Assembly (NCBI GenBank): GCA_022510945.1
Contig: JAFLSK010000002.1
Coordinates: 33,911 to 97,910, forward strand
Reading direction: 5' to 3'
DNA from: Ruminococcus sp.
Lineage (GTDB): Bacteria; Bacillota; Clostridia; Oscillospirales; Acutalibacteraceae
Length of the DNA stretch: 64,000 nucleotides
The notes beneath the pieces were generated by a model, which worked only from the letters and a program-made list of their open reading frames with translations, did no database searches and was not told where the DNA came from. The translations under genes were made by a program, and so were the position numbers. Each line of letters opens with the position of its first letter. Position 1 is the stretch's first letter. Of the stretch, positions 43,737 through 64,000 are shown piece by piece.

Positions 43737-43765
43737 TTGCAAAATAGAATTATATATGATACAAT
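43737..43765 (+). promoter_or_regulatory. Sigma-A-type promoter for rod-like RNA copy 1
   Basis: TTGCAA - 17 nt - TACAAT. Confidence 0.65.
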
Positions 43766-43769
43766 AATG

Positions 43770-43935
43770 TTGCCAAACAAATTTTATATTTTTATCAGAA
43801 AGGCTGTGCGTTTTTTTTGTTAAAAACGCAGGCTCATTTATGCACACTTTTCTGTATAATTATTTAGGATTTGTTTGGCGACAACCGAGCTATGCGTTTT
43901 ATGTGCGTGGTTTCGGCTGCGCACTTTTTTATTTT
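43770..43935 (+). ncRNA. Candidate structured small RNA, copy 1 (rod-like, 6S-like architecture)
   Basis: 5' arm TTGCCAAACAAAT pairs with 3' arm ATTTGTTTGGCgaCAA; inner stems GCGTTTTT/AAAAACGC and CAGAAAG/CTTTTCTG; ends in terminator GTGCGtgGtttcggCtGCGCAC-TTTTTTATTTT. Confidence 0.55.
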
Positions 43936-43976
43936 GCAAAAAAGCGTTAACACACGTTCCGGTTGCTGAAAAATCC

Positions 43977-44016
43977 AAAACCCAAAGAGCACTCCAATTG
44001 GGTGCTTTTGGGTTTT
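43977..44016 (+). terminator. Strong hairpin, homologous to 63820-63850
   Basis: AAAACCCAAAgAGCACtccaattgGGTGCTTTTGGGTTTT. Confidence 0.75.
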
Positions 44017-44106
44017 AGGTGAGAAGCAGTAGTTCACTGAATGCGCAGAACGTTTCCTTTTATAAAATTGCGAATTGCGCATTTCGAATTTTGCGAATTG
44101 TTTTCT

Positions 44107-44150
44107 GCCCTTTCACGTCCGTTCACGCTGAATCTATGGAGCTGGTGAAC
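44107..44150. repeat. Partial copy of the tRNA-Thr 3' end plus its flank (left direct repeat)
   Basis: GCCCTTTCACGTCCGTTCACGC matches 57955-57976 at 21/22; TGGAGCTGGTGAAC (44137-44150) is identical to 58013-58026. Confidence 0.75.
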
Positions 44151-44153
44151 TAT

Positions 44154-44236
44154 GTTCATCTGTAAAAGAACTCACACCTCGCCTGTTGCGACGTGTGGTA
44201 GGGGAAAACATTCATCAACGCAACGGGCTAAAAACA
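44154..44236 (+). repeat. Pseudoknot-like element, copy A (similar to 63917-64000)
   Basis: Shared skeleton GTTyATCT..A.AA.C...CTCGCCTGTTG.G.CGTG...GG.GAAAA..TTC..CAACGC...CTAAAAA. Confidence 0.5.
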
Positions 44237-44333
44237 GTCCACGGGGTGCTATCGATAAAGAAGGTTTATTTGTAAAGCAGACGGATATTTAATTTGTAGG
44301 ATAAAATCTAAATTATTAAGAAGGATGTATGTT

Positions 44334-44690
44334 ATGAAAAATCAGATTACATATGCAAAACAAGGCGACTATCTTTTACCTGATCTTAGATTACCTGAAC
44401 AGCCAAATGTTGAAATCGGTGTTTGGGGTAGGCGGCATTTAGGATACATTGAAAAACATCATAAAATCCGCTATTTCAATCTTCTGACAAGCTGTAAACT
44501 CATCGCTTATCTTGCCGGCATTGATAGGGAAGCAACAAAAATGTTTGATGGGATTGTTAATAAGATTTCAAAGCAAGAGGGTGTAACAGAACAACTCAAA
44601 GCCGATAATCTAATGATGTGGGTTGTGAAAATTAATAATATCCGCAATCGAGCATCCGAGATTGTGAACAATGAATTGATATATGTATAA
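44334..44690 (+). CDS. TnpV-like transposon-encoded protein
   Basis: MKNQITYAKQGDYLLPDLRLPEQPNVEIGVWGRRHLGYIEKHHKIRYFNLLTSCKLIAYL resembles the TnpV family of Tn4451-type elements. Confidence 0.8.
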   Translation: MKNQITYAKQGDYLLPDLRLPEQPNVEIGVWGRRHLGYIEKHHKIRYFNLLTSCKLIAYLAGIDREATKMFDGIVNKISKQEGVTEQLKADNLMMWVVKINNIRNRASEIVNNELIYV

Positions 44691-44804
44691 AAGCAGTGGA
44701 CGAAGGTGATTATTTCATCTTCTCCCATTGTTTTAGAAAACAAACTCTCTTCATTAATAGGTTAGACGATTTAATTATAATAATAGTGTGTTAACAGAAG
44801 AAGT

Positions 44805-44836
44805 CCCCGCTACGGTTTGTAACCGTAACGGGGATG
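44805..44836. terminator. Terminator between tnpV-like gene and the minus-strand ABC operon
   Basis: CCCCGcTACGGTTtgtAACCGTAaCGGGG. Confidence 0.8.
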
Positions 44837-44927
44837 AATTTTTATTATGGATTAGGATTTATGAATTTGGATTGGGCTCGTCGGTATTGAATACATAACA
44901 AGCGCAATCATACTGAAGGGCAAATTA

Positions 44928-45791
44928 TTATTCGCTTACTACTCCGCCCTCAACTACAAGCTCCTCCTCGTAATCTGTACCATAGGTATCAACGAGAGTT
45001 TCCTCGTAGTCTTTGTGGAAGAAGTTCTCTTCTCCAAGGGATTCGATTTCCTCGTTAATCCAGTTAAGGAGAGTTTTGTTACCCTTAGATACTGCGGGAG
45101 CGATTGTATCGTTGCTTCCGAGTGAGGGAATACCTACTGTGTAGCCTGAGTTCTGGAGAGCGTAAGCAATAACCTCTGTGTTGTCGTTAGCCCAAGCAAC
45201 ACCCTCGCCGTTTTCGAGAGCTGTCTTAGCCTGTGCATAAGCGTCAAACTTTTTGAGCTTGATATCGGGATAGTTTTCTGTAAGATATGTTTCAGCAGTT
45301 GTACCTGAGATTACGATAACCTCATCGCTATCCTCGATGTCGTCAAGACTCTCGATAACTCTTGAATCAGGAGATACAACTCCGAGCGCAACGTTCATAT
45401 AAGGAAGTGCGAAATCTACCTCTTCTTTACGCTCGTCTGTTACGGTAAAGTTAGCAAGAATGATGTCAACCTTACCTGTCTGCAGATACTCGATACGGCT
45501 TGCAGCTTCAGTTGAAACATACTCAACCTCTACGCCTAAATCCTCGGCAAGACGCTCTGCAAAGTAAACGTCATAGCCCTGATAGTCGCCGTTTTCGTCA
45601 ACGTAGCCGAATGGATTTTTGTCAGAGAATACGCCGATTTTAACTGTACCGCTCTCTCTAATCTCATCGAGCGTACGGTAAACCGCATTGGATGCACCTG
45701 AATCTGAACCGGAGCAGCTTGCGAAAGCGGCAACAATCATTACCGCTGCGGTCAGTAAAGCAAGTACTTTCTTGAACTTTGAGTTTTTCAT
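44928..45791 (-). CDS. Amino-acid ABC transporter substrate-binding lipoprotein (cystine/polar amino-acid type)
   Basis: Lipobox AFASCSGSDSG; SBP_bac_3 motifs VKIGVFSDKNPFGYVDENGDYQGYDVYFAERLAEDLGVEVEYV. Confidence 0.9.
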   Translation of the reverse strand: MKNSKFKKVLALLTAAVMIVAAFASCSGSDSGASNAVYRTLDEIRESGTVKIGVFSDKNPFGYVDENGDYQGYDVYFAERLAEDLGVEVEYVSTEAASRIEYLQTGKVDIILANFTVTDERKEEVDFALPYMNVALGVVSPDSRVIESLDDIEDSDEVIVISGTTAETYLTENYPDIKLKKFDAYAQAKTALENGEGVAWANDNTEVIAYALQNSGYTVGIPSLGSNDTIAPAVSKGNKTLLNWINEEIESLGEENFFHKDYEETLVDTYGTDYEEELVVEGGVVSE

Positions 45792-45826
45792 TTTGATTAC
45801 CTCTTTCTTTTTTTATTAACACAAAC

Positions 45827-46600
45827 CTATTGGTTTGATGTTTTAGTATGGTGTTTAACCGCATCGTACTCAAAGGTATTGAAGAACCTTCTTGCACGTT
45901 CGGTTTTTGGGTTTTCAAAGAGTTCCTCGGGGATATCTTCCTCGACAATCTCTCCTTTATCTAAAAACAGAACCCTGTCGGATACTGCCTTTGCAAACGA
46001 CATTTCGTGGGTAACAATTATCATTGTGCTGCCCTGTTTTGCGAGGTCGAGAATGGTATCGAGTACCTCGCGGACCATTTCGGGGTCAAGTGCTGCAGTT
46101 ACTTCGTCGAAAAGCATTATTTCAGGGTGCATACAGAGTGCGCGAACTATCGCAACTCTTTGCTTCTGACCGCCAGAAAGCTGTCTCGGGTAGCTGTCTT
46201 TTTTATCAAGCAGTCCGACCTTTTCGAGCAGTTGTTCAGCCTCTTTAATAACCTCAGCTTTATCGCGTTTTTGAACTTTTATCGGCGCAAGGATAATATT
46301 TTGCAGTACGGTTTTATGCGGAAAAAGCTCGTAGCTTTGGAATACCATTCCGATTTTCTGGCGAATTTCAGCGATATTTTTAGCTTTGCCGTCAATTATT
46401 TCTCCGCGGAGCTTAATTTCGCCGCCCTGTATCGGCTCAAGTCCGTTGATACATCGAAGTAACGTACTCTTGCCGCAGCCTGACGGTCCGATTACAACGA
46501 TAACCTCACCTTTATTAACTGTAAGATTAAAGTCCTTTAAAATAAGGTTATCTCCGTAGGATTTTTTTAGGTGTTTTATTGTAAGAAGTTTTTCAGCCAT
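45827..46600 (-). CDS. Amino-acid ABC transporter ATP-binding protein
   Basis: IGPSGCGKSTLLRCINGLEPI, RQLSGGQKQRVAIVRAL, EVTAALDPEMV. Confidence 0.95.
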   Translation of the reverse strand: MAEKLLTIKHLKKSYGDNLILKDFNLTVNKGEVIVVIGPSGCGKSTLLRCINGLEPIQGGEIKLRGEIIDGKAKNIAEIRQKIGMVFQSYELFPHKTVLQNIILAPIKVQKRDKAEVIKEAEQLLEKVGLLDKKDSYPRQLSGGQKQRVAIVRALCMHPEIMLFDEVTAALDPEMVREVLDTILDLAKQGSTMIIVTHEMSFAKAVSDRVLFLDKGEIVEEDIPEELFENPKTERARRFFNTFEYDAVKHHTKTSNQ

Positions 46601-46601
46601 T

Positions 46602-47279
46602 TTAAGCACTCCACTTCTTTTCTAAATATGTTGCAAGCAAGCTTATAGGCCAGCAAGCTAAAAAATACAGAATAAATACCGTAAGATAAAGTCCGAAAGC
46701 CGCGTTGGGAGCAACCATTCGGTTAGCCTCGATAATCTGTTGGGTTACCTTTAACGCTTCTACAACACCTATCATCATAACAAGGCTTGTTGTTTTTATC
46801 ATTCGGGTTACTAAGTTTATCGAAAGCGGTATAAGTCTTCTTAATGTTTGCGGTATGACAATATGGTAGTAGGTCTGCGCTTTGCTCAAACCCAGCGCGT
46901 AGCTGCTTTCGTATTGGTGCTTAGGTATGTTCGAAACCGCTCCGCGTACCAAATCTCCCATTTCGGCGGTACCCCAGAATGTAAACACGATTATCGCGGC
47001 AAGCTCTGCGTCGAGGTTCCACCCAAACATTCTCGTTGTTCCGAAAAACACAATAAAGAGGAGAACCATTTGAGGCATAATTCGTACAATTTCAAGATAA
47101 ATTCTTGAAATAATCTTTACTAAAGGATTTTTATACGTCATTACTATTCCGAATAAAATTCCGAGTACAATGCTGAAAAGTACGGCAATAAGACTTATTT
47201 TAAGAGCTACCCAGAGCCCTCCGAGAAGTCTTAGAAAATTGCTACCTTTAAGTAGTACCTCAATCCCCAAAGCTTGCAT
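46602..47279 (-). CDS. Amino-acid ABC transporter permease
   Basis: HisM-type permease with the EAA-like loop SYALGLSKAQTYYHIVIPQTLRRLIP. Confidence 0.92.
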   Translation of the reverse strand: MQALGIEVLLKGSNFLRLLGGLWVALKISLIAVLFSIVLGILFGIVMTYKNPLVKIISRIYLEIVRIMPQMVLLFIVFFGTTRMFGWNLDAELAAIIVFTFWGTAEMGDLVRGAVSNIPKHQYESSYALGLSKAQTYYHIVIPQTLRRLIPLSINLVTRMIKTTSLVMMIGVVEALKVTQQIIEANRMVAPNAAFGLYLTVFILYFLACWPISLLATYLEKKWSA

Positions 47280-47949
47280 AGCTCAGTCTCCTTTCCACAA
47301 TAGAGCCTATAATAGATACAGGCAACAAAATCAGCAGATAGAAAACTACCAGCATAGTAAGGCATTCTGCGGTTTTATAGTAAAGACCGATTAAGTCCTT
47401 AGCAGTGAACATCAAGTCCATAAGGCTTATCGCGCTGAATACGCTCGTTTCTTTGAGAAGAAAAATTATATTCGCGACAAACGCGGGCGTGCTGTAGGTT
47501 ACAGCCTGAGGTAATACAACGTGGAACATAACCTGAGCTTTGCTCATTCCGAGGCTTAAAGCTGTTTCATATTGGATTTCATCTACAGCCTCAATTCCGC
47601 TTCGGAAGGTTTCAGCCATATAGCTACCACCTAAAAGTCCGAGTCCCATTACTCCGCACACCTCGGGAGAAAAGCTTATTCCCACCTTCGGAAGTCCGAA
47701 GTAAATAAAAAACAACTGTATAAGCAGGGGAGTGTTTCTGAAAATTTCGACATATACCTTTGCGATTTGTCTTAGAACAGGAACGCGGTAGTGGACAATC
47801 ATTGCCACCAAAAGTCCTAAAGCTATCGAAAGAAATACTCCCAGCCAACCTATTTTAAGGGTAAGAAGCGTTGCTTTTTCGTATAACGGAAGATACCGTT
47901 CAATCACACTCCAATTCAATTTACCCCTTCTTCCTGACCATCGTAACAT
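47260..47949 (-). CDS. Amino-acid ABC transporter permease
   Basis: HisM-type permease; VEIFRNTPLLIQLFFIYFGLP; TALSLGMSKAQVMFHVVLPQAV. Confidence 0.93.
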   Translation of the reverse strand: MLRWSGRRGKLNWSVIERYLPLYEKATLLTLKIGWLGVFLSIALGLLVAMIVHYRVPVLRQIAKVYVEIFRNTPLLIQLFFIYFGLPKVGISFSPEVCGVMGLGLLGGSYMAETFRSGIEAVDEIQYETALSLGMSKAQVMFHVVLPQAVTYSTPAFVANIIFLLKETSVFSAISLMDLMFTAKDLIGLYYKTAECLTMLVVFYLLILLPVSIIGSIVERRLSYASFGD

Positions 47950-48048
47950 TTTATTTATGTTGTTATTAATGATATGTTACAATTTAAAAACTTGACCGAC
48001 AAAAAATTAAAATGAATTTATTTATCGGTTACTTAGAGTTTATTCATA

Positions 48049-48069
48049 AATTCCTATTTTGTCAATAGG
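48049..48069 (-). promoter_or_regulatory. Operator-like palindrome overlapping the -35 of the minus-strand amino-acid ABC operon
   Basis: Minus strand reads CCTATTgacaaaATAGGAATT; embeds -35 TTGACA with -10 TAAACT after a 17-nt spacer. Confidence 0.65.
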
Positions 48070-48165
48070 TTTTATAGGCTATAATTCAAATTTGTTAAAA
48101 TATAACAGTAATTTTCTGACAAACCGCGTACAATTAATCTAAATGCCGAAAATCCCAAATCTGTA

Positions 48166-48194
48166 TTGACAATAAAAGAATAAGATGATATTCT
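48166..48194 (+). promoter_or_regulatory. Promoter of metQNI-like operon
   Basis: TTGACA - 17 nt - TATTCT. Confidence 0.65.
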
Positions 48195-48206
48195 GTTTAC
48201 GCAAAG

Positions 48207-48227
48207 CCTATTAAACACATAGGAATT
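48207..48227 (+). promoter_or_regulatory. Operator-like palindrome just downstream of the predicted start of the metQNI-like operon
   Basis: CCTATTaaacacATAGGAATT, same 6+9 bases as the site at 48049-48069 in opposite orientation. Confidence 0.65.
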
Positions 48228-48249
48228 ATAAGTAATAGGAGTAAAGAAA

Positions 48250-48321
48250 ATGAAGATTATATTTCCTTATTTACTTCGTGCTAATTTCCGCTTCGGACGA
48301 ATGTTACGATGTTGCAGATAA
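48250..48321 (+). CDS. 23-aa leader peptide MKIIFPYLLRANFRFGRMLRCCR
   Basis: RBS AATAGGAGTAAAG then ATG...TAA; tandem Cys codons just before the stop; lies between promoter and metQ-like gene; too short for the ORF track. Confidence 0.45.
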   Translation: MKIIFPYLLRANFRFGRMLRCCR

Positions 48322-48381
48322 TAAGGTACGAACATTAATTTAATTATAACTTAAATACATTTTATAATAAGGAGAAAAACA

Positions 48382-49239
48382 ATGAAAAAAATTATATCAA
48401 TATTAATCGCATCCGCACTCATACTCACTTCCGCTATCGTATTCACCGGTTGCGGAGAAAGCAAAAAGGCAGAAATCACAATAGCAATCCCTAACGATAC
48501 CACAAACGAAGCAAGAGCGCTTCTCCTTCTCGAAGAGCTCGGTTACATAAAGCTCAAGGACGGCGCAGGCATCACAGCTACTCCTAATGACGTTGAAGAG
48601 AATGAGCACAACATCACATTCAGCGAGGTTGAGGCTGCTCAGGTTCCCAACGTTCGTCAGGATGTTGACTACGCTATCATCAACTCAAACTACGCTATCG
48701 AGGCAGGTCTCAATCCTGTTAACGATTCACTTGGTATAGAGGGCTCAGCTTCCGCTTACGGCAACATTCTCGCCGTAAAAGAGGGCAACGAGAACGAGCC
48801 GAAGATTCTCGCGCTTAAGGCTGCGCTTGAGAGCCAGCAGGTAGTAGACTTCATTAACGAGCAGTACGAGGGTTCCGTTGTAAGCGTTGTTGACAATCCT
48901 ACAGACGGCTTTGACAGTTCTGTTGACTACGACTCAATCAAGGGCGAGACAATCACAATTGCCGCTTCTCCGACACCTCACGCTGAGATTCTTGAGGTTG
49001 TTAAGGATATCCTCGCTGAGAAGGACATCACTCTCGACATCAAGGAGTACACCGACTACGTTCAGCCTAACAACGTTGTTGACAGCGGCGAGCTTGACGC
49101 TAACTACTTCCAGCACCTCCCGTATCTCGAGGACTTCAACGCTGAGAACGGCACAAAGATCGCTTCTATAGCTACTATCCACGTTGAGCCCCTCGGACTC
49201 TACGGCGGCAAAGAGACTACTCTTGACGCTTTAAACTAA
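48382..49239 (+). CDS. metQ: MetQ/NlpA-family lipoprotein (methionine ABC transporter substrate-binding)
   Basis: Lipobox VFTGCGES; TIAASPTPHAEILEVVKDILAEKDITLDIKEYTDYVQPNNVV. Confidence 0.92.
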   Translation: MKKIISILIASALILTSAIVFTGCGESKKAEITIAIPNDTTNEARALLLLEELGYIKLKDGAGITATPNDVEENEHNITFSEVEAAQVPNVRQDVDYAIINSNYAIEAGLNPVNDSLGIEGSASAYGNILAVKEGNENEPKILALKAALESQQVVDFINEQYEGSVVSVVDNPTDGFDSSVDYDSIKGETITIAASPTPHAEILEVVKDILAEKDITLDIKEYTDYVQPNNVVDSGELDANYFQHLPYLEDFNAENGTKIASIATIHVEPLGLYGGKETTLDALN

Positions 49240-49254
49240 GGTATAAATCTAATT

Positions 49255-49284
49255 TTGCACCGACTGCCCGGCGGTCGGTGCATT
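49255..49284 (+). terminator. Hairpin between metQ-like and metN-like genes
   Basis: GCACCGACtgcccggcgGTCGGTGC. Confidence 0.6.
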
Positions 49285-49344
49285 CTCGTAAATTAACCGC
49301 TGAATACATACGGCTTGTTCAGCGGTTTTCTGAATGGTGACGCT

Positions 49345-50340
49345 ATGATTGAAATTAAAAATCTTTCTAAAGTATTCAGCACGTCTAACGGAAATTTTGA
49401 GGCGCTGAAAAACATAAATATAACCGTAAACGATGGCGATATTTTCGGAATAATCGGAATGAGCGGAGCGGGAAAAAGCACCCTTGTCCGGTGTATCAAT
49501 ATGCTCGAGCGGCCGACCGAGGGAAGTGTTGTGATTGACGGAGTGGATATAAGCTCTCTCAAGGAAAAGGAGCTTAGAAAAATCCGTCGCAATGTTACGA
49601 TGATTTTCCAGGGCTTCAACTTGCTTATGCAGAGAACGTGTCTTAAGAATGTGTGTTTTCCTCTCGAACTCGATGGAGTATCTAAAAAGGACGCAAAAAA
49701 GCGTGCGCTTGAGCTTTTGGAGCTCGTTGGACTTTCAGAGAAGGCGAACGCGTATCCCGCGCAGCTTTCGGGAGGTCAGCAGCAGAGAGTGGCGATCGCC
49801 AGAGCTCTCGCTACAAACCCGAAGATTCTGCTATGTGACGAGGCAACGAGCGCCCTCGATCCCAAAACCACGCGCTCAATCCTCTCGCTTATCAAGGATA
49901 TAAACGAAAAACTCGGCATAACTGTGATTGTGATAACACATCAAATGAGCGTTATCGAGGAGATATGCAACAATGTCGCTATTCTCGATAACGGCGAGGT
50001 CGCCGAACAGGGCGCGGTAAACGATATATTCAGCGCACCTAAGTCGCAGGCGGCAAGGCACCTTGTGTTCCCTGACGGCGAGGCTCAGGTTGAGAACGCT
50101 CCTGAATATCAAAAAATTCTGCGCGTACTGTTCAACGGAGCGAACGCTACCGATACTCCGCTGATTGCAGGTATGGCAATCAACGAGGGGATAGCCGCGA
50201 ACATACTTTACGCGTCCACAAAGAGCATCGGCGACAAAACGTACGGCACAATGCTTTTAAGCTTTTCCGACGAAGAAACCCTCGGAAGAGCTAAGGCTTA
50301 TTTAACCGATATAGACGGATTAACGGTAGAGGAGGCGTAA
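49345..50340 (+). CDS. metN: Methionine ABC transporter ATP-binding protein with NIL domain
   Basis: MIEIKNLSKVFSTSNGNFEALKNINITVNDGDIFGIIGMSGAGKSTLVRCINMLERPTEG; C-terminal NIL-like domain. Confidence 0.94.
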   Translation: MIEIKNLSKVFSTSNGNFEALKNINITVNDGDIFGIIGMSGAGKSTLVRCINMLERPTEGSVVIDGVDISSLKEKELRKIRRNVTMIFQGFNLLMQRTCLKNVCFPLELDGVSKKDAKKRALELLELVGLSEKANAYPAQLSGGQQQRVAIARALATNPKILLCDEATSALDPKTTRSILSLIKDINEKLGITVIVITHQMSVIEEICNNVAILDNGEVAEQGAVNDIFSAPKSQAARHLVFPDGEAQVENAPEYQKILRVLFNGANATDTPLIAGMAINEGIAANILYASTKSIGDKTYGTMLLSFSDEETLGRAKAYLTDIDGLTVEEA

Positions 50341-50341
50341 T

Positions 50342-51046
50342 ATGTTTAACGATTTATTTTCACCCGAAGTGATTGAAGAAACACTTGATATTACTCTTAA
50401 TCAGATTCCGTTCGCATTGTGGGAGACCTTCTATGTAACCGTTCTGGCGACCTTGTTCGCTGTAATAATTGGATTGCCGCTCGGAGTATTGCTCGTTGTC
50501 GGCGAGAAGAACGGGATTTTGCCGCTTCCAAAGCCGTTTATGGCGTTTTTGAACGTGTTCATCAACTTGCTGCGCTCCGTGCCGTTTCTGATACTGATGA
50601 TACTTGTTTTCCCGATTACGAGGTTCATTATCGGCACAACAGTCGGCACAACCGCCTCGATTGTCCCGCTCGTTATAGCGGCGTTTCCGTTTGTGGCGAG
50701 ACTCGTGGAGAGCAGCTTGCGCGAGGTAAATCCTAACATTATCGAGACCGCGCAGAGTATGGGCGCATCGCCGTTCCAAATTATCATCAAGGTGATGATA
50801 CCCGAGAGCGTGCCCTCACTGATTTCAAATACCACAATCGCAATAACGACCGTCTTAGGCTACACTGCAATGAGCGGAATTATCGGCGGCGGTGGTCTCG
50901 GAAAAATCGCCATAAACTACGGATATTACCGCTATAAATACCTTGTTATGCTTATCGCGGTTATCATTCTGATTATTCTTGTTCAGATTTTCCAAAGCTT
51001 CGGAACAAAGCTTTCAAAGGTGACGGATAAGAGACTAAAAAAATAG
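50342..51046 (+). CDS. metI: Methionine ABC transporter permease
   Basis: ETFYVTVLATLFAVIIGLPLGVLL, NLLRSVPFLILMI, AQSMGASPFQIIIKVMIPESVPSLI. Confidence 0.94.
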   Translation: MFNDLFSPEVIEETLDITLNQIPFALWETFYVTVLATLFAVIIGLPLGVLLVVGEKNGILPLPKPFMAFLNVFINLLRSVPFLILMILVFPITRFIIGTTVGTTASIVPLVIAAFPFVARLVESSLREVNPNIIETAQSMGASPFQIIIKVMIPESVPSLISNTTIAITTVLGYTAMSGIIGGGGLGKIAINYGYYRYKYLVMLIAVIILIILVQIFQSFGTKLSKVTDKRLKK

Positions 51047-51054
51047 GAGAGACT

Positions 51055-52248
51055 ATGTCTAAAAGAACATACGGAAATGAATTTGGCTTTCAGACGAGAG
51101 CTGTACATACAGGAAATGACGTTGACGCGGAGACGGGTGCGATAAAACGCCCGATTACAATGGCGAACAGCTATGAGCTGCCCTACGACCCGACAGATAT
51201 GAACTGGTCAAGCGCCGATGGCAACCTCTATACACGCAACGGCGGTTCCAATCAGAAGTATCTACAGGAGAAGATAGCGTCGCTTGAGGGCGGCGAGGAT
51301 TGTGTTGTGCTTTCGAGCGGTGTGGCAGCGCTGTCGGGACTGTTTTTCTCGCTGTTGAAAAGTGGAGATCACGTGATTTTTTCGAGCGTGACGTACATAG
51401 CGGTCTATCGTCTCTTAAACGAATTGTTCAACAACAAGTTTAATGTGGAAACAACTATTGTCGATACGTCAGACCTTGACGCCGTGCGCAAAGTGATTCA
51501 GCCGAATACAAAGCTCATTCATATTGAAACACCTGGTAACCCGACTTTGACTATCAGTGACATAAAGGCTATAGCGGAAATAGCTCACGAAAACGGCGCG
51601 CTCCTTTCGGTGGACAACACATTTGCTTCTCCGTTTAACCAAATACCGATTGAGCTCGGTGCGGATTTTGCTGTGGAAAGTCTGACAAAATATATCAACG
51701 GTCACGGCGATGCGATGGGCGGCGCAATTATCGGAAAGAAAGAATATCTTGATATAATCCGAGCTCAGGCGCAGGTCAATCTCGGCGGAGCTATCAGCCC
51801 GTTTAATGCGTGGCTAATTATGCGTGGCTCAGTCACTTTGCCGCTTCGTATGAAACAGCACAATGATAATGCGCTCAAGGTTGCGAAATGGCTAGAAAAG
51901 CAGGACGGCGTGAGCTTTGTCGCGTACCCGGGACTCGAAAGCCATAAGGGACACGAAACAGCGAAAAAGCAAATGTCACCGGGCTTCGGCGGAGTGCTTT
52001 CCTTTGGTTTAAAGGCAGACCACGACACGCACAATAAATTCGTGCAGAATCTGCGCGTGATTACCTCTGCGGTATCTCTAGGCCACGATGCGAGCCTTAT
52101 CGTTTTCCTCGGCGAGGACGATGAAAGGCAGTATCTGTACCCCGAGGAATTTCATAACGGATTTTTCCGTTTCAGTGTCGGAATCGAGGATACTGACGAC
52201 ATAATAAATGATTTAAAACAGTCCCTCGAAAAAGTAGGATTGCTATAA
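51055..52248 (+). CDS. PLP-dependent Cys/Met metabolism enzyme (cystathionine/methionine gamma-lyase family)
   Basis: FQTRAVHTGNDVDAETGAIKRPI, YTRNGGSNQKYLQEKIASLEGGEDCVVLSSGVAAL, VDNTFASPFNQIPIELGADFAVESLTKYINGHGDAMGG. Confidence 0.92.
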   Translation: MSKRTYGNEFGFQTRAVHTGNDVDAETGAIKRPITMANSYELPYDPTDMNWSSADGNLYTRNGGSNQKYLQEKIASLEGGEDCVVLSSGVAALSGLFFSLLKSGDHVIFSSVTYIAVYRLLNELFNNKFNVETTIVDTSDLDAVRKVIQPNTKLIHIETPGNPTLTISDIKAIAEIAHENGALLSVDNTFASPFNQIPIELGADFAVESLTKYINGHGDAMGGAIIGKKEYLDIIRAQAQVNLGGAISPFNAWLIMRGSVTLPLRMKQHNDNALKVAKWLEKQDGVSFVAYPGLESHKGHETAKKQMSPGFGGVLSFGLKADHDTHNKFVQNLRVITSAVSLGHDASLIVFLGEDDERQYLYPEEFHNGFFRFSVGIEDTDDIINDLKQSLEKVGLL

Positions 52249-52310
52249 GAAAAAGCCCGATTTATGATATGAACCGCAAAAAAATAATCCATTATTCATA
52301 TAATTACCTG

Positions 52311-52344
52311 AAAAATCCCTGCCGTTGTTAGCAGGGATTTTTAC
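52311..52344 (+). terminator. Intrinsic terminator after the met operon
   Basis: AAAAATCCCTGCcgttgttaGCAGGGATTTTT. Confidence 0.85.
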
Positions 52345-52368
52345 AAAAAATATAGGTGGAAATTATTA

Positions 52369-52421
52369 TTGACAGCAATTTTGTATTGTGTTAGCATTAA
52401 ACTACTGAGACAATAGTAATT
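52369..52421 (+). promoter_or_regulatory. Promoter plus weaker third operator-like site
   Basis: TTGACA-17-TAGCAT then ACTACTgagacaATAGTAATT at the predicted start, same position as the 48207 site relative to its promoter. Confidence 0.4.
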
Positions 52422-52436
52422 ATAGGCGTTGGCATA

Positions 52437-52694
52437 ATGATGTTGTTGACGGCGAAAAGGAGAGATTATAATGCTTTCACTATTGGAAATCTCAAAATTG
52501 AAGTCAGAAATAAAAAGTAGATTCCATCAGAACTGCACTATCATGACGCTTGTCCAAAGGGATATTTTACACTGGATAAGTATAATGAGAATATAGGAAA
52601 ATTTATTGAGGACTTTATGTCAGAAAGAAGATTGCAACCGAAATTTGCCGATAACGGTCTTCATTTTGTTGCGGAAAGGATAAGTAATGCTTAA
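52437..52694 (+). pseudogene. 85-codon ORF interrupted by one in-frame TAG (52518-52520)
   Basis: Frame reads MMLLTAKRRDYNAFTIGNLKIEVRNKK*IPSELHYHDACPKGYFTLDKYNENIGKFIEDFMSERRLQPKFADNGLHFVAERISNA*; stop overlaps the start of the next gene. Confidence 0.55.
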
Positions 52695-53457
52695 TCAGTT
52701 TTCAAGAACACAGCTTGTTTTCGGCAAAGAGGCTATGGATATTCTCGCTGCCTCAAGAGTAGCAGTTTTCGGAATAGGTGGAGTTGGCGGCTACACCGTT
52801 GAAGCTCTCACGCGTTCGGGCATAGGTAAACTTGATTTAATAGATGATGACAAGGTTTGTCTTACTAACATTAACCGTCAGATTATTGCCACACGCAAAA
52901 CTGTGGGGAAATATAAGGTTGATGTTGCGAAAGAGCGTATTAATGAAATAAATCCCGATTGTGAAGTGCGTACTTACAAGACATTTTATATGCCCGACAC
53001 AAAAGATGAGTTTGATTTTACTCAGTACGATTACATTGTTGACGCGATTGACACGGTAAAGGGTAAGCTGGAGCTTGTTATGAACGCTAAGGCGGCAGAT
53101 ACGCCGATAATATGCTCAATGGGAGCAGGAAACAAGGTTGACGCAGCTGCGTTTGAGGTAGCAGATATTTATCAAACCTCAGTTTGTCCGCTCGCAAGAG
53201 TGATGAGATATGAATGTCGTAAACGCGGTATCAAAAAGCTAAAGGTTGTGTATTCAAAGGAAAAGCCGATTCGCCCTGTAGAGGATATGGCGATCAGCTG
53301 CCGTCAGCATTGCATTTGTCCTCCCGGCACCGCAAGAAAATGTACTCAGCGCAGAGATATCCCCGGCTCAACTGCGTTTGTGCCGTCAGTAGCCGGCTTG
53401 ATTATTGCGGGCGAGGTTATCAAGGATTTAACAAGTTTCGATAGGGACAACAGATAA
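52687..53457 (+). CDS. tcdA: ThiF/HesA-family tRNA threonylcarbamoyladenosine dehydratase-like protein
   Basis: VAVFGIGGVGGYTVEALTRSGIGKLDLIDDDKVCLTNINRQI; CICPPGTARKC. Confidence 0.85.
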   Translation: MLNQFSRTQLVFGKEAMDILAASRVAVFGIGGVGGYTVEALTRSGIGKLDLIDDDKVCLTNINRQIIATRKTVGKYKVDVAKERINEINPDCEVRTYKTFYMPDTKDEFDFTQYDYIVDAIDTVKGKLELVMNAKAADTPIICSMGAGNKVDAAAFEVADIYQTSVCPLARVMRYECRKRGIKKLKVVYSKEKPIRPVEDMAISCRQHCICPPGTARKCTQRRDIPGSTAFVPSVAGLIIAGEVIKDLTSFDRDNR

Positions 53458-54257
53458 TGAAGCTTGCAATGGCTCAGATGCAAATGAGCGGTTCATTAAA
53501 TGATAACCTTGAAACGACAATATACTTTATGCGTGAAGCAAAACAAAAAGGGGCAGATTTCATCTTCTTTCCCGAGGTGCAACTTTCGCCGTTTTTTCCG
53601 CAATACGAGGGAAGAAATGCTGAAAAATATCTGCTTTCGCTTGATTCGCCCGAAATAAAAACAATCCAAAATTCTTGTAAAGAATTAAAAATATACTCCT
53701 CGCCCAATGTATACCTCAATTTAAACGGTAAGGCGTATGACGCTTCACTGATGATAGACAGTAACGGAGAGATTGTAGATATCTCCAAAATGGTATACAT
53801 TTCGCAGGCGGAGAGCTTTTACGAGCAGGATTATTATACTCCGTCTGACGACGGGTTCAAGATTTTCGATACTCCGTTTGGAAAAATCGGAATAGTGATA
53901 TGCTTTGATAGACATATGCCCGAGAGCATAAGGGACTGTGCGTTAAAAGGAGCGGAGCTTATAATAATTCCGACGGCAAATCTTGTCACCGAGCCAATGG
54001 AGCTTTTTGAATGGGAAATCCGTGTGCAGGCATTTCAAAATCTTGCATATATAGCAATGTGTAACAGGGTAGGTCAGGAGGACAAAATTAATTTTTGCGG
54101 ACAGTCATTAATAGCCGCTCCAAACGGAGAACTTATATTAAAGGCAGATAATACTGAAAAGTTGATTATTTCAGATATAAAGCTTGAAAGTATAAAAGAA
54201 ATTCGCAGGGAGCGTCCGTGGATTAAGCTTGCGAAGAGCAGAGGGGAGATAACTTAA
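53457..54257 (+). CDS. Carbon-nitrogen hydrolase (nitrilase superfamily)
   Basis: Glu/Lys/Cys catalytic context: FFPEVQLSPF, DISKMVY, GIVICFDRHMPESIR. Confidence 0.9.
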   Translation: MKLAMAQMQMSGSLNDNLETTIYFMREAKQKGADFIFFPEVQLSPFFPQYEGRNAEKYLLSLDSPEIKTIQNSCKELKIYSSPNVYLNLNGKAYDASLMIDSNGEIVDISKMVYISQAESFYEQDYYTPSDDGFKIFDTPFGKIGIVICFDRHMPESIRDCALKGAELIIIPTANLVTEPMELFEWEIRVQAFQNLAYIAMCNRVGQEDKINFCGQSLIAAPNGELILKADNTEKLIISDIKLESIKEIRRERPWIKLAKSRGEIT

Positions 54258-54728
54258 ATGTCCTTTGAGAAAGCAAAAGAATTTTTAGAGAGTAAAAACC
54301 TCGGAGATAAAATAATTGTGCTCGATGAAAAAAGCGCTACGGTTGAACAGGCGGCAAATGCTCTCGGTGTTACAGAAGCGGAAATAGCCAAAACGCTTTC
54401 GTTTATAGTTGACGAGAAACCAATTCTTATTGTGCTTGAGGGCACGGCGAGAATTGACAATAAAAAATACCGCCAAACCTTCCACACAAAGGCAAGGATG
54501 ATTCCGTTCGATTTGGTAGAAGAACTTACAGGGCACGAGGTTGGCGGAGTTTGTCCGTTCGGCGTGAATGATAATATAAATATTTACTTAGATGAAAGCC
54601 TGAGGAATTACGAAAAGGTATATCCTGCCGCAGGCAATGACCATACAGCCATAGTCCTCAGCCTCGAAGAGTTAGAGACAGCTGTCAACCCGACCGCGTG
54701 GGTAGACGTTGCAAAAATAAGTGAATAG
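54258..54728 (+). CDS. YbaK/EbsC-type aminoacyl-tRNA deacylase
   Basis: AEIAKTLSFIVDEKPILIVLEGTARIDNKKYRQTF, TGHEVGGVCPFGV. Confidence 0.9.
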   Translation: MSFEKAKEFLESKNLGDKIIVLDEKSATVEQAANALGVTEAEIAKTLSFIVDEKPILIVLEGTARIDNKKYRQTFHTKARMIPFDLVEELTGHEVGGVCPFGVNDNINIYLDESLRNYEKVYPAAGNDHTAIVLSLEELETAVNPTAWVDVAKISE

Positions 54729-54974
54729 AAAAGAAGAGCTTTGAGTTTGATGTAAACACAAATATATATTGGCGGTATATTCTTATTATAGGAGTAAAAA
54801 CGCACTGTTTGTTAAGATGTGATATTTAAGATTATATCGTGTTATATAGAACAAAGTTTCTAAATTTAATTGACAATTAAGCGATTGTACGCTAAAATTA
54901 TAACTGTACACAGAACTGTTCGCAGTATATGAACAATAACTGAATAGTGATGAACTTATGAGTGTAAAGAGCTG

Positions 54975-55062
54975 ACGGACGCAGGAACATCACCTGCGGG
55001 CAGCGCAAAGCCAAAGATGCGCTAAATGGGCTTCGGTACGCTGAAGAAAGTGCCGACTCCGT
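54975..55062 (+). ncRNA. Candidate multi-branched structured element in the mobile region
   Basis: Closing stem ACGGA/TCCGT enclosing GCAGG..CCTGC, AGCGCA..TGCGCT and GCTTC..GAAG (alternative CGGTAC..GTGCCG). Confidence 0.35.
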
Positions 55063-55398
55063 TCTATGCATTTGCTTATTTATTTAGAACGGCAGTACAA
55101 ATAAGCGCTTTAAGTTTTCAGAAGTAAATCAGAAAATTTAAAGTCAAGTTACATGAGGCTTCTCATACCAAGGGGGCAGTCTACCCTTTTGAGAATGAGA
55201 AAAAGCCTTGTGTGGCTTGGCTTTTTGTCATGCCTAAAAACTGAATGATCGTCCGAATGGGATATGATATTGCGATGACCAATAATAAGCGAGCGATACA
55301 ACGGCTTGGTAAAATTCCGAGGCAGGAACCACATTCGGATAAAACGGCGAACCTAACACAAATCAGTCACTATTTAATGTGACGGAAAGGAGGATTTT

Positions 55399-55701
55399 AT
55401 GACAAAAGGTGATTTAATTGTTGCTATGGCACTCGAAGATAAGCCTAAAGAAGGCTATCCTGTGCTCACAGAAGGACACCCTTTTCTTCAAAGACTTGTC
55501 CGCTTTATGGCAACAAAAGAGCATTGTCTCGGAACGGCTACAGACTTACTTAAAGAGCTGAACGACAAATCAACGCCGCCGAATACAGTTACCAAACTTT
55601 TGAACAAGTTTTGGTACACATTGTATCATCGTGACGGTATTGATGTACGTTTCCGACGCACTAACCGTAAAAGAATCATTGAAATTTTCAAAAACAAGTG
55701 A
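55399..55701 (+). CDS. Small winged-helix-like protein resembling the C-terminus of element-encoded primase/replication proteins
   Basis: HPFLQRLVRFMATKEHCLGTATDLLKELNDKSTPPNTVTKLLNKFWYTLYHRDGIDVRFRRTNRKRIIEIFKNK. Confidence 0.5.
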   Translation: MTKGDLIVAMALEDKPKEGYPVLTEGHPFLQRLVRFMATKEHCLGTATDLLKELNDKSTPPNTVTKLLNKFWYTLYHRDGIDVRFRRTNRKRIIEIFKNK

Positions 55702-55856
55702 CGGTTAGAGTGACGTATTTATGACGGTTTGATTTTTAAGGTAAACTTGGATGTATAAGTTTAACGAGCAGACTGTTTGTGCTCCCACAGGGACAAAACA
55801 GTATAAATCGTTAGGGAAACCCTAAAACCCCAAGAAAGAAAGGATGTGATAGAGAA

Positions 55857-56117
55857 ATGTTTTATCTTGATGAAAACGGATATGTAATTGATAAGCGTAC
55901 TGAGTTAAACGATGCGTTTGAAGATATCTACTATAAGCTCGGCGATATGACGCCTGAAAAGCGTATAGCTTGGTTCAAAAGTTGTATGTATGGTGAGCCC
56001 TTAAAATATACTCAAGAGATAGATAATACAACATATATTGTAAGGACAAGCTTCAACGAAAACTCAAACAACAATCTCTTAGACAAGATTGAAAAAATAG
56101 TTGTTGAAAACAATTAG
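55857..56117 (+). CDS. Hypothetical protein of mobile region
   Basis: Good RBS (GAAAGGATG) and ORF immediately upstream of the recombinase. Confidence 0.5.
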   Translation: MFYLDENGYVIDKRTELNDAFEDIYYKLGDMTPEKRIAWFKSCMYGEPLKYTQEIDNTTYIVRTSFNENSNNNLLDKIEKIVVENN

Positions 56118-56165
56118 TTTATCGCTTTAAAGTGTTGAATTTAATAGTTAGATATGTTACAATAG

Positions 56166-57884
<1,719 letters not shown>

Positions 57885-57900
57885 AACCTGAAATATCATA

Positions 57901-57948
57901 GTCCAGTGGGGCACCTTCTTTATGTAGTGTGTCCCACCGGACTGTTTT
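57901..57948 (+). terminator. Terminator after the recombinase
   Basis: AGTCCagTGGG...CCCAccGGACTgtttt. Confidence 0.75.
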
Positions 57949-57954
57949 ATTAAC

Positions 57955-58012
57955 GCCCTTTCAAGTCCGTTCACGCCCAAAACAAAAAGGACGTCAAAGA
58001 CGTCCTTTGTTT

Positions 58013-58035
<23 letters not shown>
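57955..58035. repeat. 15-bp inverted repeat flanking the tRNA-Thr terminator (right end of island)
   Basis: TTCAAGTCCGTTCAC (57960-57974) and GTGAACGGACTTGAA (58021-58035), the second being the tRNA T-arm/acceptor. Confidence 0.8.
57978..58012 (-). terminator. Terminator of tRNA-Thr
   Basis: CAAAACAAAaaGGACGTCaaaGACGTCCTTTGTTTTG. Confidence 0.8.
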
Positions 58036-58088
<53 letters not shown>

Positions 58089-62683: not shown

Positions 62684-62977
62684 ATGGATATAATACAGTT
62701 TGAATGGGATAATAACAAAAATACTATCAATAAAAAGAAACACAAGATATCCTTTGAAGAAGCTAAAACCGTGTTCTATGATGAGGATGCATTAATCATT
62801 GATGACCCCGAGCATTCCGAGGAGGAAGAAAGGTTTATTATTTTAGGGCTCAGCAACAGAGCCAATCTGCTCGTGGTCTGTCATTGTTACAGAGCATCCG
62901 ACACAGTTATTCGCATTATTTCCGCAAGAAAAGCAACAAAATCAGAGAGTAAACAATATAATGAATGGGGTGACTAG
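62684..62977 (+). CDS. brnT: BrnT-family toxin
   Basis: FEWDNNKNTINKKKHKISFEEAKTVFYDEDALIIDDPEHSEEEERFIILGLS...IRIISARKATKSESKQY. Confidence 0.9.
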   Translation: MDIIQFEWDNNKNTINKKKHKISFEEAKTVFYDEDALIIDDPEHSEEEERFIILGLSNRANLLVVCHCYRASDTVIRIISARKATKSESKQYNEWGD

Positions 62978-62978
62978 A

Positions 62979-63188
62979 ATGAGAGAAGAATATGATTTCA
63001 AAAACGCAAGAAAAAATCCTTATGCAAAAAAGCTAAAAAAACAAATTACAATTAATATCGACAGTGAGATAATAGATTATTTTAAGGCTCAGGCGAACGC
63101 TTCAGGTATTCCTTATCAAACCTTAATTAATCTGTACCTTGCGGATTGCGCTGAACACAATAAGAAGCTTCATATTTCTTGGACTTAA
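62979..63188 (+). CDS. brnA: BrnA-like antitoxin
   Basis: NARKNPYAKKLKKQITINIDSEIIDYFKAQANASGIPYQTLINLYLADCA; immediately downstream of brnT. Confidence 0.85.
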   Translation: MREEYDFKNARKNPYAKKLKKQITINIDSEIIDYFKAQANASGIPYQTLINLYLADCAEHNKKLHISWT

Positions 63189-63359: not shown

Positions 63360-63363
63360 TTAG

Positions 63364-63539
63364 TTGCAACACAAAATTTAAAATTGCCTCACTGACAGTT
63401 TGTTTTTTTATCTTTAATTAGATAAAAATGCATGCTCTACTCTTTTACACACTGTTGGTGAGAGATGTTAATTTTGTGTTGCAGCAATCAGGGCTTGCGT
63501 TTTTTGTGCGCGGCTTTGTGCTGCGCATTTTTTATTTTG
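63364..63539 (+). ncRNA. Candidate structured small RNA, copy 2 (rod-like, 6S-like architecture)
   Basis: 5' arm TTGCAACACAAAATT pairs with AATTTTGTGTTGCAgcAA; inner CTCACtgACAGT/ACTGTtgGTGAG and TTTTTATC/GATAAAAA; terminator TGCGCgGCtttgtGCtGCGCA-TTTTTTATTTT. Confidence 0.55.
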
Positions 63540-63771: not shown

Positions 63772-63819
63772 TATATTTAAAATACATAACGCCCTTTTGT
63801 TGCCACACAAATCTAACTC

Positions 63820-63850
63820 AAAGACACCCTAATGGGTGTCTTTTGGTTTT
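63820..63850 (+). terminator. Terminator after XRE gene, homologous to 43977-44016
   Basis: AAAGACACCCtaatGGGTGTCTTTtggtttt. Confidence 0.8.
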
Positions 63851-63916
63851 ACTGATTTATATTTGAACTTTAGGACTGTTTTCTTAACGCCCTTTCGAAT
63901 CCCGCCGCTGGCGTGC

Positions 63917-64000
63917 GTTTCATCTATAGAAAACTTCCATCTCGCCTGTTGGGGCGTGGAGAAGGAGAAAAGTTTCTACAACGCTCCTCCCTAAAAATCG
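63917..64000 (+). repeat. Pseudoknot-like element, copy B (similar to 44154-44236), runs to window edge
   Basis: Shared CTCGCCTGTTG...CGTGGAG...GAGAAAAgTTTCtaCAACGC...CTAAAAA skeleton. Confidence 0.5.

Follow-up and report, generated by a model that had tools for sequence, protein, structure and literature searches.

The window, i.e., the whole stretch of 64,000 nt analyzed here, corresponds to positions 33911-97910 of contig C12 in a Ruminococcus sp. genome of 1.66 Mb assembled into 57 contigs. Two loci in the window, hereafter copy 1 and copy 2, resemble each other far above chance. Each of them comprises a leader-like RNA, a terminator-like hairpin termed (a), and two elements termed (b) and (c) (Table 1); the motifs named in the earlier note were all found at both loci and in the order claimed there. 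As that note also stated, an XRE gene is present in copy 2 and absent from copy 1. Copy 2 stops at window position 64000 because contig C12 ends there (97910). To the left of copy 2, positions 62684-63187 hold a BrnT-type toxin gene (PF04365) and, after it, a small ORF, possibly that of the antitoxin. DNA searches of the same genome recovered many further partial copies, which fell into two separate sets, one matching the RNA (with or without the XRE gene) and the other matching (b) plus (c). The description of the two loci as a duplicated module is therefore misleading, since the genome carries 14 copies of the RNA (E<=1e-4) and 18-20 copies of element (c).

Table 1. Features of the two loci and of the island between them (window coordinates).
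Feature	Position	Strand	Evidence or remark
Leader-like RNA, copy 1	43769..43936	+	Model R2, 137.7 bits; closing stem covaries; no gene directly behind
Hairpin (a), copy 1, terminator-like	~43963-44018		Sequence; alignable with 63799-63849
tRNA-Thr array, second tail unit (element (b), copy 1), with a degenerate half-tip and an antisense-tRNA arm	44101..44128	-	TTTTCTGCCCTTTCACGTCCGTTCACGC
Positions 63-76 of tRNA-Thr(CGT), copied directly (14 nt)	44137..44150	-	TGGAGCTGGTGAAC, identical to 58013-58026
Distal half of first tail unit, ending in hairpin-tip loop (attL half)	44151..44242	-	R1, 59.8 bits; junction 44242
Element (c), copy 1	44177-44242
Serine-recombinase island, 13,695 bp	44243..57937		Joined flanks give an intact tail
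TnpV protein, near left end of island	44337..44690	+	PF14198, E=2.7e-41
TnpW protein	55857..56117	+	PF14202, E=3.4e-11
Large serine recombinase, ~54 nt from right end of island	56193..57884	+	Resolvase, Recombinase, Zn_ribbon_recom and DUF4368 domains
Proximal half of first tail unit (attR half)	57938..57976	-	Antisense of tRNA-Thr positions 54 onward at 57959-57976
tRNA-Thr(CGT), gene owning the copy 1 tail	58013..58088	-	ARAGORN; Rfam tRNA, 64.4 bits
Leader-like RNA, copy 2	63363..63539	+	R2, 163.4 bits
XRE/HTH_3 gene, 69 aa	63562..63771	+	PF01381, E=3.5e-14; starts 23 nt past the RNA terminator
Hairpin (a), copy 2, terminator-like	~63799-63849		Sequence
5' half of second tail unit, copy 2: half-tip ending GTCC and antisense arm, tRNA-Gln-like (element (b), copy 2)	63873..63906	-
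First tail unit, copy 2, with remnant of tRNA 3' copy, cut by contig end	63907..64000	-	R1, 54.8 bits, truncated
Element (c), copy 2	63938-64000

The leader-like RNA is ~170 nt long. When aligned, nine copies fold into a structure whose closing stem covaries, and two-sided changes at 11 of 39 pairs, located mainly in that stem, indicate a conserved structure; the RNA (models R2 and A3) also has a possible pseudoknot (GCATGCTC/GAGC). A promoter-like sequence (TTGnnn...TGnTAnAAT) lies directly upstream of the RNA and a terminator at its end. A gene follows 9-31 nt downstream in approximately 20 of the 39 copies, while the others have no gene behind them or lie in a locus that is cut. The downstream gene encodes an XRE protein in three copies of this genome; elsewhere it often encodes a secreted protein, and lipoproteins, zinc-ribbon proteins and others occur as well. 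We detected the RNA in 30 of 40 genomes of the same genus, with 1-14 copies per genome. Where a gene follows, the order of promoter-like sequence, structured RNA, terminator and gene is that of riboswitch and attenuator leader RNAs, but no Rfam family matched the RNA here; neither the RNA nor the repeat described below hit any family at gathering or lax thresholds. The leader-like RNA apparently represents a separate, undescribed family, which would regulate by premature termination. No plasmid match for the RNA with XRE was found in the phage and plasmid collections searched. A single record labeled as a phage (MT835845.1, 'Bacteriophage sp.') contains the leader-like RNA, but it carries chromosomal-looking genes (YicC-like and ComEC-type hydrolase) and is probably a bacterial contig.

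Elements (b) and (c) are parts of one structured non-coding repeat of ~145 nt, which we name the tRNA tail. Most tails share the strand of a tRNA or tmRNA gene and lie 45-110 nt downstream of it, and tandem units are frequent. In tRNA orientation, the gene is followed by a terminator, an antisense copy of the 3' part of the tRNA (from position ~70 to 54 of the tail's own tRNA), a core, and the final 14 nt of the tRNA (positions 63-76) as a direct copy. The core has a hairpin with a conserved tip, such as AAAACAGTCC-GGT-GGACTGTTTT, with two more small hairpins after it, and a terminator, often duplicated, stands between tail units. The closing stem of the tail is only ~8 bp and gave no clean score in many units, and an automated stem search mostly caught terminators. 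At copy 1, TTTTCTGCCCTTTCACGTCCGTTCACGC is the reverse complement of the T-arm/acceptor region of tRNA-Thr with one mismatch, and the part that had been called tRNA-3'-end-like proved to be a real copy of the neighboring tRNA. Tails were also seen behind tmRNA genes at five loci, where the copied sequence is the 3' end of the tmRNA.

The distribution of tails was surveyed with R1, a covariance model of the 94-nt core. Besides the 18-20 copies in this genome, tails were present in 33 of 35 named genomes of the same genus, whereas among 23 further genomes of the order, each of a different genus, just 2 had copies. Among 110 core matches from 72 sources, 69 lay behind a tRNA or tmRNA gene on the same strand, 47 of those at a distance of 45-108 nt; the remaining loci were often cut by contig ends or held truncated tRNAs. 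A fuller count in one genome (G032) gave 37 tails, 18 of them at most 250 nt and six more at most 900 nt behind a same-strand tRNA (24/37), with none of the 37 facing a tRNA on the opposite strand; conversely, 19 of the 40 tRNA genes of that genome carry a tail. The lack of a tRNA at the other 13 loci of G032 is partly due to contig ends. Tails break assemblies at contig ends and are thus easy to miss.

Both tRNA-derived parts of a tail match the tRNA that the tail follows. The mean match of the antisense arm to its own tRNA was 12.6 nt versus 5.7 nt with the tRNAs swapped, and the corresponding values for the direct copy were 12.3 and 5.1 nt. Position by position, the identity of the direct copy (36 aligned units) was 0.83-1.0 from position 76 to 63 (0.92 at 63) and fell to 0.22 at 62, while that of the antisense arm was 0.95-1.0 from 54 to 64 (1.0 at 54) and 0.08 at 53. 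The edges of the two copies are therefore sharp, at 62/63 and 53/54, respectively. The antisense identity drops beyond position 67, implying that the arms have partly decayed. A terminator stretch of at least 15 nt was exactly duplicated in 15 of 43 loci and never in swapped pairs. For 26 of 67 cores, as against 7.1 expected, the nearest relative stood at a different tRNA within the same genome. This likeness of cores across the tRNAs of one genome implies that the core spreads, whereas the tRNA copies on its flanks are local ones.

Copy 1 leads into an island, as had been claimed, and this island is a serine-recombinase element of 13,695 bp. Read leftwards, the tail of tRNA-Thr(CGT) has a regular beginning (57938-57976) but is interrupted within the loop at its hairpin tip; what is missing there, namely the second half of the tip, the remaining core and the 14-nt tRNA-Thr copy, is found at 44137-44242. 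The joined flanks are identical at 51 of 52 positions to an intact tail in contig C10. At the level of sequence, these matches show copy 1 to be the tail of tRNA-Thr(CGT) split by the island at the hairpin tip. The precise ends with a restorable empty site, as well as the large serine recombinase accompanied by TnpV and TnpW in the Pfam searches, are those of a Tn4451-like element, and the cargo of the island includes amino-acid transporter genes. In three other species, recombinases 88, 70 and 72% identical to that of the island also end at half-tips, and other relatives, at six loci, end at apparent terminator arms. Ends resembling the 3' arm of a terminator adjoin recombinase relatives at three further loci as well. 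The ends of these relatives suggest that this group of recombinases may target hairpin-forming palindromes. The palindromic tip serves as the integration site of Tn4451-like islands, and we infer that the recombinase made the junction at copy 1. The second tail unit of copy 2 is cut at the same point of the tip, namely GTCC (63873), which adjoins hairpin (a), and 63873..63906 matches the tRNA-Gln tail of contig C9 at 100% (35 bases).

The tip itself is widespread. A search of GTDB genomes located the 33-nt tip CGTTAAGAAAANNGTCCNGTGGACNNTTTTTAG in at least 120 stretches. Most of these belong to Clostridia of the gut and rumen, among them Ruminococcus sp. FMBCY1 with its complete genome, but the tip also occurs in Bifidobacterium, Pseudoalteromonas, Aliidiomarina, Treponema and alphaproteobacteria. 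Reversed-pattern controls of the search gave zero matches, and the tip was not found in the viral contigs searched. A tRNA lay no more than 150 nt upstream of 51 of the 133 tips, and a further 15 belonged to tandem arrays. Positions 1-6 of the lower stem were Watson-Crick pairs in 81, 61, 48, 54, 60 and 41 of 89 cases, respectively, as compared with ~37, 24, 22, 20, 23 and 19 after shuffling. The bases outside the tip are complementary but not conserved, i.e., the tip is fixed and the stem below it varies, tandem G-A steps being common. When wobble pairs were used to assign the folding strand, the excess of G-T over A-C came almost entirely from one conserved position. In an alphaproteobacterium (Rhodobacterales; locus L161, position ~1226), a tip hairpin of ~46 nt interrupts an IS630 transposase gene, of which the matching gene is uninterrupted in Paracoccus and Dinoroseobacter plasmids. 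In Aliidiomarina (locus L181, position ~923), a tip lies inside an insert flanked by a direct duplication of ~85 nt; the duplicated stretch resembles the 3' end of a translation-factor gene with its terminator, analogous to the duplication of tRNA end and terminator. Bifidobacterium biavatii and B. goeldii have 13 and 7 copies of the tip, respectively, and the three Bifidobacterium settings that we read were similar to one another and not beside tRNA genes.

How tails arise admits several explanations. By the statistics above, the core behaves as a small mobile repeat shifting between the tRNA genes of a genome, and each copy bears sequence of its local tRNA at fixed edges; no enzyme mobilizing the core was found. 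Going further, we tentatively propose, at less than an even chance, that tails constitute a new class of bacterial mobile repeat, which would have tRNA and tmRNA genes as its targets and, upon arrival, add an inverted (positions 54-76) and a direct (63-76) copy of the target tRNA at fixed edges. The T-loop, being the most universal part of tRNAs, would guide the core, which could prime there and extend by copying the local tRNA. If this is true, one core could re-address itself to any tRNA.

Two other explanations of the tail are each less likely than not, to a similar degree. The tail may encode a small RNA that mimics a tRNA, is processed from the tRNA transcript, and serves as a decoy or in the maturation of tRNAs, comparable to the rtT RNA of E. 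coli; the tRNA copies would then be kept by selection and not by a copying mechanism. This accords with a conserved and foldable core on the strand of the tRNA, with an antisense arm matching the T-arm, and with a 3' end identical to positions 63-76 including CCA. On the other hand, congeners range from 0 to 37 copies, two of them having no detectable tail, and the decay of the arms, the many truncated units and the spread of cores within genomes all speak against such a role. Alternatively, tails may need no dedicated enzyme if template switching of replication at terminator hairpins makes the inverted copy of the tRNA and gene conversion spreads the core, an explanation of about the same probability. 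The 3' end of the tRNA, the terminator and the antisense copy do form one long palindrome, and the exact duplication of terminators mentioned above (>=15 nt; 15/43 loci) fits this explanation. The edges fixed at 53/54 and 62/63, the discrete insertion of ~46 nt in the alphaproteobacterial IS630 transposase gene, and the sharing of the tip across phyla do not, and these three observations together favor an active element.

As for the module in the window as a whole, we regard it as a composite with a probability of roughly 0.8, in which a tRNA-tail repeat, the tip of which serves as an island site, stands beside a separate leader-like RNA. The proposal that the module is a recurring boundary of integrated elements held for the tail, since the island of copy 1 starts exactly in the hairpin tip and the three related recombinases of other species also end at half-tips, but not for an RNA-regulator cassette. 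The RNA usually lies far from (b) and (c), a tail being within 1.5 kb at only 2 of 29 RNA loci in relatives, and it precedes many unrelated genes, while the tail goes with tRNA genes; on these findings, the single RNA-regulator cassette that had been suggested is not supported. The two components do co-occur at 3-4 loci of this genome, which is above expectation: the RNA, XRE gene and tail are found together at copy 2 and in contigs C31 and C4 (the tail in C4 being weak), and at copy 1 the RNA is accompanied by a tail but by no XRE gene. Their co-location is real in this genome and not general. We read it as a meeting by neighborhood and not as one functional unit, although this reading leaves the excess unexplained. 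The same loci are what would favor one RNA-XRE cassette marking the ends of a single family of integrated elements. This explanation is very unlikely and largely refuted by the scattered occurrence of the RNA, most copies of which precede other genes, as well as by the 2 of 29 loci above and by the ordinary chromosomal genes (aminotransferase, PcrA-like helicase and HisF) beyond the RNA in C31 and C4. The RNA-XRE pair as an island end was likewise rejected on account of those genes. That the likeness of the two loci is a coincidence or an assembly error, as the many copies at contig ends of a fragmented assembly might suggest, has a negligible probability and is already refuted by the same architecture in dozens of other genomes, including that of Ruminococcus sp. 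FMBCY1.

The composite reading has consequences beyond the window. The tail as a palindromic landing site for serine recombinases partly explains why islands gather beside tRNAs in these genomes, and the tips of tails are useful for finding natural attB sites. The tail also poses the questions of how a DNA copies its target during insertion and of whether the resulting RNA affects tRNA maturation.

Tn4451/TnpX-type integrative elements combine a large serine recombinase with TnpV and TnpW; unlike those elements, the island in the window sits in the loop of a tRNA-tail hairpin and carries amino-acid transporter genes. To integron attC sites, with their GTTRRRY boxes, there is a resemblance only. 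Neither the tip sequence nor the tRNA-tail repeats turned up in the open-licence papers searched, and we know of no described counterpart of a repeat that stands behind up to half of the tRNA genes of a gut or rumen bacterium and bears, in each copy, its own tRNA in antisense and in sense. The rtT repeats of E. coli (tyrT operon; Rfam RtT) lie in tandem behind a tRNA gene, each with the end of the tRNA, and are, to our knowledge, known from one locus, with no antisense tRNA copy described. The tail shares with them the tandem units and the direct copy of the tRNA 3' end but differs in occurring at many tRNAs and tmRNA, in many species, and with an antisense arm; the Rfam RtT model had no match in the window or in five tail-bearing loci. 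REP sequences and REPINs are short palindromes of many phyla, often located 3' of genes, with an unpaired GTAG or CGTC tag (PMC3733652). Similarly, the tip is a short palindrome spread over phyla, but the 5' side of the tip reads CGTTAAG in place of a GTAG or CGTC tag, the stem beneath the tip varies, and in Clostridia the tip is joined to local tRNA copies; REP palindromes, like rtT, are not described with antisense local-tRNA copies at fixed edges. Among the known systems, rtT is the closest to the tail in arrangement, and REP palindromes are the closest in style.
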